NCBI GenBank assembly: GCA_027307335.1
Contig: DAHUXD010000044.1
Coordinates: 124,001-188,000 of the forward strand
DNA length: 64,000 nucleotides
DNA from: Acidobacteriota bacterium
GTDB taxonomy: Bacteria > Acidobacteriota > Thermoanaerobaculia > UBA5066 > Gp7-AA6
Direction of reading: 5' to 3'
Shown here: piece after piece, positions 8,412-47,074 of the stretch
Layout: each line of letters begins with the position of its first letter
How positions within the stretch are numbered: position 1 is the first letter of the stretch
Notes under the pieces: generated by a model
Told to the model about the DNA's origin: nothing
Database searches by the model: none
Seen by the model: only the letters and a program-made list of their open reading frames with translations
Position numbers and translations under genes: made by a program

Positions 8412-11329
8412 GGGCGGTAGACGAGCTGAGCATATCCGCGCCCCGTGTGGATCTCGGGAAGGGCGCTCACGATCCAGCCTGCCCCGACCCGAAAGGTGAT
8501 CGTCCGGCCGAACTCGGCCGGGATCAGCCGCTCGAGCCGCACCTCGGCGCCCACGACGCGAACGGGATCGGGGCGCGCCGCGCTCCAGGCCCTCAGCCAC
8601 TCCGCGTAGAGCACGATCGGGACGACCGACCCATCCGCCTCGGCCCGGAAGCGCTCGAAGCGCCGACCCGCCTGGACGTCCGCCGGAAGCGCGGGGCTCG
8701 CGATCCGGTTCCCGTCCAGCCCCGGCGGCAGGATCGCGTTCGGCGCGCCGCCGACCGCGTAGAGGTCGAAGAGCGACGGTGCTCCCCCCGTGCCGCCGCC
8801 GCGCGCGGAGGCCGAGAGGACGACCCACGGCAGGATCGCGGACAGGCGGCCGCCCGCCGACCACTGCGTCCACGCGGCTCCGGCCGTCTCGCCCGCCGAC
8901 CCGGCCACGTCGCCATCGACGCCGAATCCGGACCGTCCGCGAGTGCGACGGAACGCGACGCGGACGGACGATGCGCCGAGCGCGCGCGCAAAAACACTTT
9001 TTGGCGACAGCGCGTCGACGCGCGTGCCGCCGCCGCCCGCCCGCGCCTCGAAGGCGCCCCACGAGAACGGACGCGCCCACGCCGCCTCCAGGAACCCTCC
9101 CGCGCGCTCCTCGTCGAACGCGGGCCGCGGCGCGAGGCCCTGGTTGCCGGGTTTCTCGAGCGCGGAGAAGAGCTGCGCGCTCAGCGCGACCGGCCAGCCG
9201 CGAAACGCCGCGGCGACCGCGCCGCCTCGAGGCCCGATCGCGTCTCCCATCGAACCGAGCGCCATCAGGTGGAGGCGCTCGATCACGTCGGCCGAGTCGG
9301 CCCCGAGCTGGACGGTATTGCCGGACGGACCGAAGGAGAAGTTGACGAGCGGACGGATCGCCTGCGTCCTCCAGGCGTCGTAGCAGACGTCGGGGTCAGG
9401 TCTCTGAATGTGTGAGTTTGAGTTCGCAGGACTGGAAGAGAAGCCCCGCCCGTGGGTCATTTCTTCAGAGATCTGACCCCCGAGTTCTTCACGTGAGCCC
9501 GATTCCGTGGGCACGGAAGGCGCCTTTGATTCCAAAGTCACATTTTCAGAGACCTGACCCCCGAGGGGGCGACCCCCGAGAGGTAGCCGGCGGATCGAGA
9601 CGCCGCGGGCGCCGAAGTCGAGGAAGTAGAGGCTCGCGCCATCCGGCGCCGGCGCCGGAGAAAGGGCTCCGCCGAAGACGCGCGTGAGCACGCGCGGGTC
9701 CGCCGTTCCGGAGGAGTCGACGGACTCGACGTTCCAGATACCGCCGGCCGCCGCCGCGACGAAGATCCGCGCGCCGTCGGGACTCCACGCGGGGGCGCCG
9801 GCGGGCGCGCCGCCCGTCGGAAGATCGACCGCCGCGCCGCCGCCCACCGGCCCCACGACGAGGCGCCAGCGTCCGCCGGCGTGGAGCAGCGCCGCGATCC
9901 GCCGTCCGTCGGGCGAGACGCGGGGATGGCTCCAGACGGGCCACTCCTCGGGGACGGGCGTCGCGGCGTCGATCGCCCGGCACTCCCCGGTCGAGAGGTC
10001 CACGCGCACGAGCGCGGACCGTCCGAACCGGCCGCGCACCGCGACCGCCCACGTGCCGTCCGGCGCCGGATCCGCGTCGGCGGCGTCCGCGAGCCGCGTC
10101 ACCCGCGCCGTGCGGCCGGCGGCATAGTCCCAGCGATACAGGTCCCAGCGCAGCCGTCCCGCGGCATCGGGGCCGCGGCGCGCGAAGAGCACCGCGCGGC
10201 CGTCCGGCATCCAGCGCGGGTCCGAGGCGGTGAAGCCGTTCGCGCGGGGCAGCCTCCAGAGCGGACGCGACGGCGGCGTCTCTCGCCCTTCGTCGCCCTC
10301 GGCGGAATCCGCCTCCCCCGCTTTCGCCGGCGCCGCCTCCCAGATCGCGACGTACGTCTCGAGCGGCGACGGATCGCGCCGCCCGAGGAGATGGCGTCCA
10401 TCGGGCGACACGGACAGCGCGAGCGTGCCGCCGCGCAGGCGCGCCCGCAGCTCCCCGCGGACGAGCCCCTCCGCGTCGAGGCGCTTCTCCTCCGCGAGCG
10501 CCGCCGCCTCGGTCTCGGCGCGGAAGCGGCCGTAGAGCGCCTCCGGCTCGTCGCGAAAGACGGTCCGAAACGCCCGGCCGAACGCCCCGCCGGACGACGC
10601 CATCTGCCGCCAGAGACGGGGCAGCGCCTCCGCGCCTTCGCGCGCGGCGAGCCACTCGAGGAAGGCCGACCCGACCAGGTAGGGCGGCGATCCACCGAGC
10701 CAGGAGCTTGCGGAGTCGAGCTCGGAGTACTCCGGCAGCTTGCCCGCGGCGCCGAGCGCGCGCAGCACCATCCCGCGGAACGCCGAGTGGGGACGCCCCG
10801 ATCCCGTGAGCGCGCCCTCGACGAGCGTGGCGTAACCCTCCATGACCCAGCGCGGCGAGCCCAGCGCGAGCGGTCCGAACGGCGCCGGCGACAACCGATA
10901 GAGCGCCGCTGTCCAGCCCTCCGCGGGGCGCGTCAGGTGCGCGACGTGCGCGACCTCGTGCGTCGTCACCATCTCCATCCAGTCGCCGAAGTCCCCGATC
11001 GAGGACTCGGACTCGGGCGGCGACGTCCAGAGGAGGACCTCCGGCCGGTCGAGGACCGGGATCGCGGCGCCGTTCGCGTCGCCGACCGGATCCGCGACGA
11101 CGACCTCGATCGGCCGCGGAGGCGCCCAGCCGACGAGCGCCGCGACGCTCGCGTGCACGTCCTCGATGCGCCCGGCCGCGTGCCGCGCCCAGTCCTCGAA
11201 CGGCGCCGGATAGTGGATGCGGAAGTGCGCCGTCTCGATCGTCCGCCAGTCGCCCCAGGGCTCCTGGGCCGGTGCGACGACCGGGACCGCGACGAGTCCG
11301 AGGATCGCGGCCAGGGCCCGCCGGAGCAC
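8408..11329 (-). CDS. Gluzincin-like metallopeptidase with propeller and C-terminal barrel-like region
   Basis: A 973-aa exported protein. A GTG at 11329 begins (M)LRRALAAILGLVAVP, a signal peptide; the open frame continues far upstream, antisense to the PDZ gene, without plausible protein. Residues about 25-300 hold a peptidase-MA-like zinc site, MVTTHEVAHVAHL, with a downstream glutamate in WVMEGYATLVEG. The middle has TolB/PD40 repeats (LSVSPDGRHLLGRRD, AWSPDGARIFVAA). The C-terminal part (LVNFSFGPSGNTVQL ... GYAQLVYRP) has alternating hydrophobic strands and an aromatic end like an outer-membrane barrel. Between propeller and barrel an in-frame repeat insertion adds about 57 residues (see 9392-9561). 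It is coupled to the hydrolase gene at 8411. Confidence 0.82.
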   Translation of the reverse strand: MLRRALAAILGLVAVPVVAPAQEPWGDWRTIETAHFRIHYPAPFEDWARHAAGRIEDVHASVAALVGWAPPRPIEVVVADPVGDANGAAIPVLDRPEVLLWTSPPESESSIGDFGDWMEMVTTHEVAHVAHLTRPAEGWTAALYRLSPAPFGPLALGSPRWVMEGYATLVEGALTGSGRPHSAFRGMVLRALGAAGKLPEYSELDSASSWLGGSPPYLVGSAFLEWLAAREGAEALPRLWRQMASSGGAFGRAFRTVFRDEPEALYGRFRAETEAAALAEEKRLDAEGLVRGELRARLRGGTLALSVSPDGRHLLGRRDPSPLETYVAIWEAAPAKAGEADSAEGDEGRETPPSRPLWRLPRANGFTASDPRWMPDGRAVLFARRGPDAAGRLRWDLYRWDYAAGRTARVTRLADAADADPAPDGTWAVAVRGRFGRSALVRVDLSTGECRAIDAATPVPEEWPVWSHPRVSPDGRRIAALLHAGGRWRLVVGPVGGGAAVDLPTGGAPAGAPAWSPDGARIFVAAAAGGIWNVESVDSSGTADPRVLTRVFGGALSPAPAPDGASLYFLDFGARGVSIRRLPLGGRPLGGQVSENVTLESKAPSVPTESGSREELGGQISEEMTHGRGFSSSPANSNSHIQRPDPDVCYDAWRTQAIRPLVNFSFGPSGNTVQLGADSADVIERLHLMALGSMGDAIGPRGGAVAAAFRGWPVALSAQLFSALEKPGNQGLAPRPAFDEERAGGFLEAAWARPFSWGAFEARAGGGGTRVDALSPKSVFARALGASSVRVAFRRTRGRSGFGVDGDVAGSAGETAGAAWTQWSAGGRLSAILPWVVLSASARGGGTGGAPSLFDLYAVGGAPNAILPPGLDGNRIASPALPADVQAGRRFERFRAEADGSVVPIVLYAEWLRAWSAARPDPVRVVGAEVRLERLIPAEFGRTITFRVGAGWIVSALPEIHTGRGYAQLVYRP
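9392..9561. repeat. Compound GGGGTCAGG palindromic element inside a coding sequence
   Basis: The left end reads GGGGTCAGGTCTCTGAATG (9392-9410). An inverted end, CAGAGATCTGACCCC, sits at 9466-9480 and a second, TTTCAGAGACCTGACCCC, at 9544-9561. Element arms match the 65-bp element at 45377-45441. It is therefore one full unit plus an extra half unit. It lies within the gene at 8408-11329 and keeps that gene's reading frame open, adding a stretch containing SENVTLESK and SNSHIQRPDP. The flanks carry CCCCCGAG repeats. No transposase is nearby; mobilisation by a REP-associated (Y1) transposase in trans is inference. Confidence 0.8.
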
Positions 11330-42059: not shown

Positions 42060-42263
42060 ATGAACAGAGACGAACGCGACGGCAAGATCGAGGAGCTCAA
42101 GGGCACCGTCAAGGAGACTGCCGGCCGGATCACGAAGAAGCCCGATCTGGAGCAGGAGGGCGCCGAAGAGCGCGCCGCCGGCAAGGCCCGGCACGATTAC
42201 GGCGAAGCCCGACGCGAGGTCGGCGAATCCGTCGAAGACCTGGGAAAAGAAATCAAACGCTGA
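42060..42263 (+). CDS. CsbD family stress protein
   Basis: A 67-aa hydrophilic protein of the CsbD family, small helical proteins induced in general stress. It starts MNRDERDGKIEELKGTVKE with the family motif KGTVKETAGRITKKPDLEQEG. An AGGAGG site lies 7-8 nt before the ATG. It lies 80 nt downstream of the M20 gene and 44 nt upstream of speA. Biochemical role unknown for the family. Confidence 0.9.
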   Translation: MNRDERDGKIEELKGTVKETAGRITKKPDLEQEGAEERAAGKARHDYGEARREVGESVEDLGKEIKR

Positions 42264-42307: not shown

Positions 42308-44256
<1,949 letters not shown>

Positions 44257-44260
<4 letters not shown>

Positions 44261-45366
44261 GGCCCGTCCCGGCGGCGCTCGCGGCCGTCCTGCTCGCTGT
44301 GGCGGCGGCGACCGCCGCGGCCGCGCCGCCCGAGACCGCGCGCCTCGCCAACCGCGTCTGGCGCGTCGGGATCTTCGAGGCGCCGCCCTACACGTGGCGG
44401 GCGGAGAACGGCGAGTGGCGCGGCCTCCTCGTCGAGGTCTGGAAGCACGTCGCCGAGGAGCTCAACCTCTCCTACCGCTTCGGCGAGGCGAACGCCGACA
44501 CGATTCTCGACGACCTCGCGCACGACCGCCTCGACATCGCGGTGGCGCCCTTCGCCATCACGCTCGACAGGGAGCGGACCGTCGACTTCACGCACGGGTT
44601 TCTCCGCGCGCAGACCGGCATTGCGGTGCGCCGCGGCGGCGACGAGGAACGGTGGACCTCGGTGGCCCGCGCGCTGGCGACGCGAACGGCGCTGCGCCTG
44701 TATCTCGGCATCGTCCTCCTGGTCTTCCTGGCCGGCTTCGTCATCTGGTTGCTCGAGCACCGACGCAATCCGGAGTTCGGAGGCCGGCCGTCGCAGGGCA
44801 TCGGTTCCGGGGTGTGGTGGTCGGGCGTGACGACCGTCGCGGTCGGCTACGGCGACAAGGTGCCGATCACGTTCTGGGGACGCGTAACCGGACTGCTCTG
44901 GATGTCGATCAGCCTCATCCTCGTCACGGCGTTCACCGCGTTCGTGACCGCGAAGCTGGCCGTCGCCGAGTTCGGCCGCGTCGTGGACGCGTCGACCCTG
45001 CGCAACGGCATCGTCGGCACGGTCGAGGGCGCGGCCGTGGGAGAGCTCCTCCGCCACGAGCGGCTCCGGCATCGCGTCTACGCGTCCATTCCGAAGGCCC
45101 TCGACGCGCTGCGCGACGGCGAGGTCGCTGCCGTCGTCTGGGACGTGACGGTGCTCGACTACTACGTCCAGCGCGACGCGCGGCGGGACCTCGAGGTCCT
45201 CCCCTCCACCTTCGACCACCAGATGCTGGCCTTCCCCGTCCCCGACGGCAGCCCGCTGCGGGACCCGATCGATGACGCCCTGCGCCGCTTCCTCGCGCTG
45301 CCCGGCTGGCAGGACCTCCAGGATCGCTACCTCGCGGCAGCGAGGCCGGAGGCGCCCCGGCAGTGA
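44257..45366 (+). CDS. Glutamate-receptor-like (GluR0-type) potassium channel subunit
   Basis: A 369-aa membrane receptor-channel. After a signal peptide (AALAAVLLAVAAATAAAA) comes the first lobe of a periplasmic amino-acid-binding domain (VWRVGIFEAPPYTW, LLVEVWKHVAEELN, LDIAVAPFAITLDRERTVDF). A pore block follows: helix YLGIVLLVFLAGFVIWLLE, the K+ selectivity filter VTTVAVGYGDKVP, and helix GLLWMSISLILVTAFTAFV. The second lobe resumes at STLRNGIVGTVEGAAVGELL. This lobe-pore-lobe order is that of cyanobacterial GluR0. Tetramers should open a K+ pore on ligand binding. Coupled to speA by an ATGA overlap. Confidence 0.9.
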
Positions 45367-45376
45367 CGGCTATGGA

Positions 45377-45441
45377 GGGTCAGGTCTCTGAATGTGTGAG
45401 TTCCAAAATATTGGAAGTCACGCTTTCAGAGACCTGACCCC
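45377..45441. repeat. GGGGTCAGG palindromic element, complete 65-bp copy
   Basis: A near-perfect hairpin: arms GGGTCAGGTCTCTGA and TCAGAGACCTGACCCC (15 bp perfect), then GTGTGAGTTCCAA paired with TTGGAAGTCACGC (11 of 13), with AATA at the tip. It lies between the convergent channel and glnK genes, could terminate both, and on the minus strand encodes the last residues and stop of the PII protein. Confidence 0.85.
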
Positions 45442-45791
45442 ATGCCGACCGGCGTGACCGCGGCCTGGTCTTCCTCGCCGGTGCGGATCCGGTAGACCTT
45501 CTCGACGGGCAGCACGAAGACCTTGCCGTCGCCGACCGAGCCGGTGCGGGCCGAGGCGAGGATCGCGCGCACCGTCGGCTCGACGAAGTGGTCGGACACG
45601 CCGATCTCGAGACGGACCTTCTCGGCGAGCTCCATCTTCACCGTCGTGCCGCGATAGGTCTCGACGCGCTCGGTCTCGCCGCCGTGGCCCTCGACGCGGT
45701 GGAGCGTCAGGCCGCGCACCTCCGCCCGGAAGAGCGCCTCCAGGACGTCGGGCAGCTTTTCGGGGCGGACGACGGCAACGACGAGCTTCAG
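45426..45791 (-). CDS. glnK: PII-type signal protein, CTG start
   Basis: A 121-aa PII regulator. The N-terminus (M)KLVVAVVRPEKLPDVLEAL fits the family only if translation starts at CTG 45791, which overlaps the amt stop (CTGA) and has GGAGGGG 8 nt upstream. The ATP-binding signature ARTGSVGDGKVFVLPVEKVYRIRTGE is intact. In the T-loop the segment reads YRGTTVKMELAEK, so the usual tyrosine (Tyr51) is absent and classical uridylylation cannot occur there. It probably senses ATP/ADP and 2-oxoglutarate and plugs Amt. The C-terminal GSGL and stop come from the palindromic element at 45377-45441. Confidence 0.9.
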   Translation of the reverse strand: MKLVVAVVRPEKLPDVLEALFRAEVRGLTLHRVEGHGGETERVETYRGTTVKMELAEKVRLEIGVSDHFVEPTVRAILASARTGSVGDGKVFVLPVEKVYRIRTGEEDQAAVTPVGMGSGL

Positions 45792-47074
45792 AGGCCGGAC
45801 CCCTCCGCCGCCGCCGGCTCGGGCAGGGCCAACCCGGCGGTCGGCGCTTCGGGCAGCACGAGGATCGCGCCTTCGCCGCGCGCGTACGCCTCCTCGCCGT
45901 GCTGGGTGACGTCGAGGCCGAGGCCCTCCTCGCGAGCGGTGGCGCGGAGCGGCGCGAAGGCGCCGACGAGCTTGAGCAGGCCGAACGTGGCGGCGCCGCT
46001 GTAGAGAGCCACCGCGAGCACGCTCGCCGCCTGGATTGCGAGCTGGCGCGGGTTCCCGAAGAGCAGCCCGTCCGCGGTCCCGTTCCAGGCCTTCTGCGCG
46101 AGCACGCCGGTCAGCAGCGCGCCGACCGAGCCGCCGAGGCCGTGCGCGGCGACGACGTCGAGCGAGTCGTCGAGCCGCGTGCGGGCGCGGTAGAGCAGCG
46201 CGAAGTAGCTCGGGAAGGCGGCGACGCCGCCGAGCAGGATCGCCGAGACCGGGCTGACGTAGCCGGCCGCCGGCGTGATCGCGACGAGCCCGACGACGGC
46301 CGCGGTGGCCGCGCCCACCGCCGTCGCGCGCCCCGTGCGCGCGAAATCGAGGAGCGTCCAGACGACGAGCGTCGCCGCCGGGGCGAACATCGTGTTGACG
46401 AACGCGAGCGCGGCGGGCCCGTTCGCGGCGAGCGCGCTGCCGCCGTTGAAGCCGAACCAGCCGAACCAGAGGAGCCCCGCGCCGAGGAGCGTGAACGGCA
46501 CGTGGTGCGGGAGGACGGCCTGGCGGGCGTAGTCCTTGCGCGGCCCGAGCACGAGCGCCGCGACGAGCGCCGCCGCCCCCGCGTTGATGTGCACGACCGT
46601 CCCGCCGGCGAAGTCCAGCGCGCCGAGCCGGCCCAGAAACCCGCCGCCCCAGACCCAGTGCGCGACCGGCGCGTACACGACGAGGCCCCAGAGCGTCAGG
46701 AACGCCAGGTACGGGCCGAATCGCATGCGTTCGACGATCGCCCCGGAGATCAGCGCCGCGGTGATGATCGCGAACGTCCCCTGGAACGCCATGAAGAGCA
46801 GCTGGGGCACCGTGCCCTGCGGCTCGAGGCCCACGCCCTTCAGGAGGACCCGGGAGAACCCTCCGGCGAAGTCGGTCCCCGGAGCGAACGCGATCGAGTA
46901 GCCGACGAGCGCCCACCCCACGCCGACGAAGCCGAGCGAGGCGACGCTCATCATCATCGTGTTCAGCGCGTTCTTCGAGCGGACGAGCCCCCCGTAGAAG
47001 AAGCCGAGCGCGGGAGTCATCAGGAGGACGAGGGCCGTCGAAACCAGCAGCCAGGCGGTGTCGGCTTTGTCCAT
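45788..47074 (-). CDS. amt: Ammonium transporter Amt
   Basis: A 428-aa ammonium channel of the Amt/MEP/Rh family. Starts MDKADTAWLLVSTALVLLM, then PALGFFYGGLVRSKNALN, ALISGAIVERM, WGGGFLGRLGALDFAGGTVVHI (pore His region) and the second pore His in VVAAHGLGGSVGALL. About 11 membrane segments are visible. A weak TACCCT box ends 7 nt before the ATG, which suggests a leaderless mRNA. The C-terminal tail (PEAPTAGLALPEPAAAEGSGL) is unusual and ends in the same GSGL-stop as the PII protein that follows. Forms an operon with glnK; amt is first. Confidence 0.95.
   Translation of the reverse strand: MDKADTAWLLVSTALVLLMTPALGFFYGGLVRSKNALNTMMMSVASLGFVGVGWALVGYSIAFAPGTDFAGGFSRVLLKGVGLEPQGTVPQLLFMAFQGTFAIITAALISGAIVERMRFGPYLAFLTLWGLVVYAPVAHWVWGGGFLGRLGALDFAGGTVVHINAGAAALVAALVLGPRKDYARQAVLPHHVPFTLLGAGLLWFGWFGFNGGSALAANGPAALAFVNTMFAPAATLVVWTLLDFARTGRATAVGAATAAVVGLVAITPAAGYVSPVSAILLGGVAAFPSYFALLYRARTRLDDSLDVVAAHGLGGSVGALLTGVLAQKAWNGTADGLLFGNPRQLAIQAASVLAVALYSGAATFGLLKLVGAFAPLRATAREEGLGLDVTQHGEEAYARGEGAILVLPEAPTAGLALPEPAAAEGSGL

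Follow-up and report, generated by a model that had tools for sequence, protein, structure and literature searches.

A likely GluR0-type potassium channel of divergent sequence in a lineage-specific position behind speA in an Acidobacteriota genome

Among the relatives of animal glutamate receptors, channels of the GluR0 type are the simplest. GluR0 is a K+ channel that is oriented opposite to ordinary K+ channels and takes part in controlling cell volume when KCl is high (PMC13099474), and the amino acid is held in prokaryotic glutamate receptors by an Arg of the first binding lobe (S1) and an Asp of the second (S2) (PMC2950845). The general K+ channel signature is TXXTVGYG (PMC6385376). None of the papers searched brought together Acidobacteria, potassium channels and ionotropic glutamate receptors of bacteria, and the literature on GluR0 with polyamine block concerned animal channels only, as far as titles and abstracts tell. 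We analyzed a stretch of 64,000 nucleotides of an Acidobacteriota genome (the window), in which a channel gene of this type follows speA, the gene for biosynthetic arginine decarboxylase (Table 1). In our preferred reading, which we consider likely, the channel gene codes for a divergent member of the GluR0 kind of prokaryotic ionotropic glutamate receptors (group 1, with a K+ filter). It occupies a lineage-specific operon position behind speA, and on this reading the two genes do not form a conserved polyamine unit.

Table 1. Features of speA and the channel gene in the window (residue numbers are those of the channel protein)
Feature	Position in the window	Strand	Basis
speA, biosynthetic arginine decarboxylase, 650 aa, directly upstream of the channel	42308..44260	+	TIGR01273, PRK05354, PDB 3n2o
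ATGA, overlap of speA stop and channel start	44257..44260	+	sequence
GluR0-type K+ channel gene, 369 aa	44257..45366	+	Pfam, PDB sequence matches, AlphaFold2, Foldseek
Probable signal peptide, residues 1 to about 23, MRPVPAALAAVLLAVAAATAAAA	44257..44325	+	hydropathy peak 4-22; model helix 5-20
Binding lobe 1 (S1), about residues 34-125, with Arg105	44356..44631	+	SBP_bac_3, Lig_chan-Glu_bd
Transmembrane helix M1, residues 143-167	44683..44757	+	hydropathy, model
Pore helix and K+-type filter, residues 178-201	44788..44859	+	Ion_trans_2, column counts
Transmembrane helix M2, residues 206-240	44872..44976	+	hydropathy, model
Binding lobe 2 (S2), about residues 245-362, with Asp296	44989..45342	+	SBP_bac_3

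The channel reading frame is intact, with zero internal stops. Its start is credible because the protein opens with a clear signal-peptide-like stretch, a hydrophobic helix ending in AAAA by hydropathy and in the AlphaFold2 model, and this is followed by binding lobe 1, M1, a K+-type pore loop (VGYGDK), M2, and binding lobe 2. All Pfam matches exceeded the curated cut-offs, with 67.8 bits for SBP_bac_3, 41.0 for Ion_trans_2 (cut-off 22.5), 37.9 for Lig_chan, and 33.5 for Lig_chan-Glu_bd. The SBP_bac_3 match spans residues 40-359 and is split by the pore at 152-233, giving the lobe-pore-lobe order that the first-pass annotation had described, and the K+-type filter TVAVGYGD that it had named lies within TTVAVGYGDK at residues 192-201. 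The gene is a normal-looking coding gene of this genome because its GC3 (0.94) matches that of speA (0.96), and it encodes the sole Lig_chan protein of the genome, with three further Ion_trans_2 matches elsewhere. A chimeric contig behind the junction of the two genes is unlikely, the junction lying inside a 217 kb contig with matching GC3 on both sides.

The assignment to the GluR0-type family, also made from the sequence in the first-pass annotation, was borne out by Pfam, by PDB sequence matches, and by the structure prediction that the annotation had suggested as a check. The AlphaFold2 model had a mean pLDDT of 91.2 and a pTM of 0.79 and placed the M1 and M2 helices (Table 1) and a pore helix at residues 178-193 between the two lobes. 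Foldseek against the PDB aligned the model over its full length, about 370-380 columns, with AMPA receptor chains comprising the ligand-binding and transmembrane domains (E 4e-21, about 20% identity). A family profile built from 58 related channels matched the binding cores 2pyy (1e-55) and Slr1257 (1.4e-37) as well as full-length animal and plant glutamate receptors. The best solved structures for the binding lobes were glutamine-type and glutamate-type binding domains, and a match to the lysine/arginine/ornithine-binding family (NCBIfam) reached 63.8 bits, far under its cut-off of 256, so that specificity is not decided by this match. A scan of contigs with the single channel protein as query returned zero matches and an alignment query succeeded; the scan of bacterial genomes with the alignment gave at least 560 channel relatives, of which 80 were used. 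Since these 80 span many phyla, the family is widespread as well as known. A channel relative from within the phylum (L141, G196:C71:21756-22805) is very divergent, has AQA where the GYG filter is expected, and resembles the group that lacks the K+ filter.

Both amino-acid-binding residues anticipated for the lobes are present in the window protein, with Arg105 kept in 57 of 57 sequences covering the position and Asp296 in 55 of 58. Elsewhere in the pocket and filter, it stands apart from the rest of the 58 sequences. Lobe-2 position 259, Ser or Thr throughout the 57 relatives, is Ala in the window protein, and so is position 100, which is Thr or Ser in most relatives. Phe at position 45 (56 sequences) and Tyr at position 295 (46 sequences) are replaced by Tyr and Trp, respectively, in the window protein only, and Tyr at position 324 (53 sequences) is replaced by Leu. 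The usual filter TMTTVGYGD reads TTVAVGYGD, with A195 in place of the Thr before VGYG, a residue that is common but not defining in the family (7 of 57 relatives lack it). Altogether, the changed conserved positions are A259, A195, V194, A100, Y45, W295, T298, L324, and S217. Because of these changes, the ligand and conductance of the window channel may differ from those of its relatives, and since they include the filter Thr and several residues of the pocket, K+ selectivity and gating by amino acids may be impaired. In the tree, the window protein sits on a long branch (1.33) and groups with three sequences of its own class and one Verrucomicrobium sequence (support 93/92); several of these neighbours also depart from the family pattern, with Gly at position 195 in G032 and Gly in place of Asp in G005 and G006. 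From the sequences, we read this group as a divergent subgroup that may have changed its ligand preference and possibly its conductance.

The same list of changed positions and the long branch, together with Gly for Asp in two related proteins of the order (L039 and L041), would also fit a degenerating or repurposed channel, in which the pocket and filter changes ended ligand gating or K+ selectivity and left a leak or a gene heading to loss. We regard this as unlikely, given a full-length reading frame with high GC3, a confident fold, and the retention of GYGD and of the Arg and Asp. On the preferred reading of a divergent GluR0-type channel, the window protein, with Ala at the filter Thr and at a pocket Ser/Thr, is a natural variant with which to probe the requirements of the fold for ligand gating and K+ selectivity.

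The gene upstream is a firmly assigned speA, scoring 742 bits against the equivalog model TIGR01273 (cut-off 624), 843 against PRK05354 (cut-off 369), and 8e-146 against PDB 3n2o, and its ATGA overlap with the channel gene was found as previously annotated. The bases immediately ahead of the channel start (GGTACACCTACCTCGAACG) hold no purine-rich ribosome-binding site, none is obvious within 20 bases of it, and the nearest purine-rich stretch, GAGGAAG, lies about 30-35 bases upstream. Because of the overlap and the lack of an obvious ribosome-binding site of its own, the channel is probably translationally coupled to speA, plausibly by reinitiation after speA, and the two genes are probably carried on one transcript; a four-nucleotide overlap of this kind implies their joint expression. 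By itself, the ATGA overlap says little, because four-nucleotide overlaps are common in this genome, being counted with a rough gene caller in about 14 of 86 same-strand neighbouring pairs over 398 kb. Directly before speA lies a small gene for a CsbD-like stress protein (42060-42263), with weak matches only (PRK10428, MBP-1).

The first-pass annotation had tied the channel to polyamine synthesis and proposed a search for the pair in relatives. Channel and SpeA would then work as one functional unit that couples membrane potential to the supply of amino acids, with the channel either sensing arginine, agmatine, or a polyamine or being blocked by polyamines from the cytoplasm. Such a unit would fit the ATGA overlap and the lack of a separate ribosome-binding site, and also a pocket so unlike that of the relatives that its ligand may be new. 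The comparative evidence speaks against it. No channel of the GluR0 kind was found in the 67 other speA neighbourhoods of the class, three of which held isolated binding-domain matches without a pore, and no speA was found near the channel in 88 loci (8 of the class and 80 from other phyla, the latter taken from the at least 560 matches), each covering up to about 10 kb (class) or 6 kb (other phyla) on either side and some being shorter at contig ends. Among these loci, the pair was thereby limited to the window genome, an absence from relatives that the first-pass annotation had itself named as refuting its proposal, and a conserved speA-channel operon was rejected. Neither was any recurrent neighbour of the channel recognised in other bacteria, since no gene was common to most of the 80 loci used from the at least 560 relatives; the loci of Pseudomonas and Marinobacter resemble one another mostly through synteny local to them.

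Across the class, the presence of the two genes was uncorrelated. True channel homologues (32-40% identity) were identified in 8 of 148 other genomes and speA in 69; four genomes (G006, G032, G037, and G103) carry both, on different contigs in each, and the other four channel genomes (G005, G061, G072, and G073) are without this speA, which also weighs against a functional unit. Weaker class matches in G145 and G040 (L042 and L043) lack binding lobes, being K+ channels of the voltage-gated type, and were not counted as GluR0. The genomes compared included no other species of the genus, within which the pair may be conserved; the closest were two family relatives (G001 and G002), both of which keep speA at about 80% identity and show no recognisable copy of the channel. 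Upstream of speA, G001 keeps the genes for an AmpG-like transporter and an M20 peptidase, and the contig of G002 begins at speA. The gene that follows speA, named by eye, is rhomboid-like in G001, formate/nitrite-transporter-like in G002, and often YqgE-like in another family of the order.

The protein itself gave no hint in the same direction: no arginine-, agmatine-, or polyamine-specific feature was seen in its pore or pocket, and almost all relatives carry K or R directly behind GYGD, with speA near none of them. We therefore hold a functional unit of channel and SpeA to be very improbable, and the narrower version, in which the channel was re-specialised at pocket and filter within the window genus to respond to arginine, agmatine, or a polyamine, as substrate or product of SpeA, and became part of a private unit coupling polyamine synthesis to K+ flux, to be extremely unlikely. 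The link to speA, seen only in the window genome among those compared, is probably incidental and would matter only if it were functional. As far as the compared genomes show, the position of the channel behind speA is lineage-specific and is not that of a conserved functional unit with polyamine synthesis.

K+ and putrescine are reciprocally related in E. coli. An osmotic link between the two genes would build on the balance of these intracellular cations, the channel being co-expressed with SpeA to adjust K+ as polyamines change, and would agree with the control of cell volume by GluR0 under high KCl (PMC13099474). MscS-type genes lie within a few kb of related channels in several phyla (11 of the 80 other-phyla loci used from the at least 560: L059, L075, L078, L093, L107, L121, L126, L125, L073, L106, and L136), more often than we would expect by chance, which may reflect a shared osmotic role, although the count and any enrichment are rough, the queries having been drawn partly from those same loci. 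An MscS-type gene also adjoins speA in three relatives of the order (L044 6535-7212, L053 10585-11205, and L057 7042-7662), upstream on the same strand in G001 and divergent in G014 and G006. Against an osmotic link stand the missing conservation of the speA-channel pair and the absence of MscS from the 8 class channel loci, and MscS beside speA was rejected as a theme, occurring in 3 of 67 loci, all within the order. We consider the osmotic link quite improbable.

On its other side, the channel gene is met by converging genes for a PII-type nitrogen regulator and an ammonium transporter (Amt) (45426-47074, - strand), and no PII or Amt genes were found near speA or the channel in relatives, among the class loci and the 80 other-phyla loci used from the at least 560 matches. 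A 16-base inverted repeat (45377-45441, GGGTCAGGTCTCTGAA ... TTCAGAGACCTGACCC) lies between the channel and PII genes. It looks like a REP-type repeated element because further palindromes resembling it are present at 9393-9560 of the window and elsewhere in the genome (L205, L201, and L211), and it may also act as a terminator.

By analogy with GluR0, four channel subunits would form an inner-membrane K+ pore turned upside down with respect to KcsA, and the two lobes would lie in the periplasm. The clamshell would be closed by a small ligand, for which an alpha-amino acid, not necessarily glutamate, is the most likely candidate; the closed clamshell would pull on M2 and open the pore, and the resulting K+ flux would change membrane potential or turgor. 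An alpha-amino acid is favoured because Arg105 and Asp296 are present, and glutamate itself is less certain because the pocket is changed.

Among known systems, GluR0 (Slr1257) of Synechocystis sp. PCC 6803 and the other group 1 channels (PMC2950845, PMC13099474) have in common with the window protein the lobe-M1-pore-M2-lobe order, the GYGD K+ filter, the S1 Arg, and the S2 Asp. The window protein differs from them in the Ala that replaces Thr before VGYG, in its altered pocket (A100, A259, W295, and L324), and in the placement of its gene behind speA. The core of a bacterial ionotropic glutamate receptor homologue, 2pyy, is the top glutamate-receptor-type match of the window lobes among solved structures (8.8e-17), at low identity and with its lobe-2 GST replaced by GAA in the window protein. 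Animal AMPA-type glutamate receptors share the fold of the ligand-binding domain and pore, whereas the window protein is without their amino-terminal domain and M4 and carries a K+-type filter in place of the animal pore loop.
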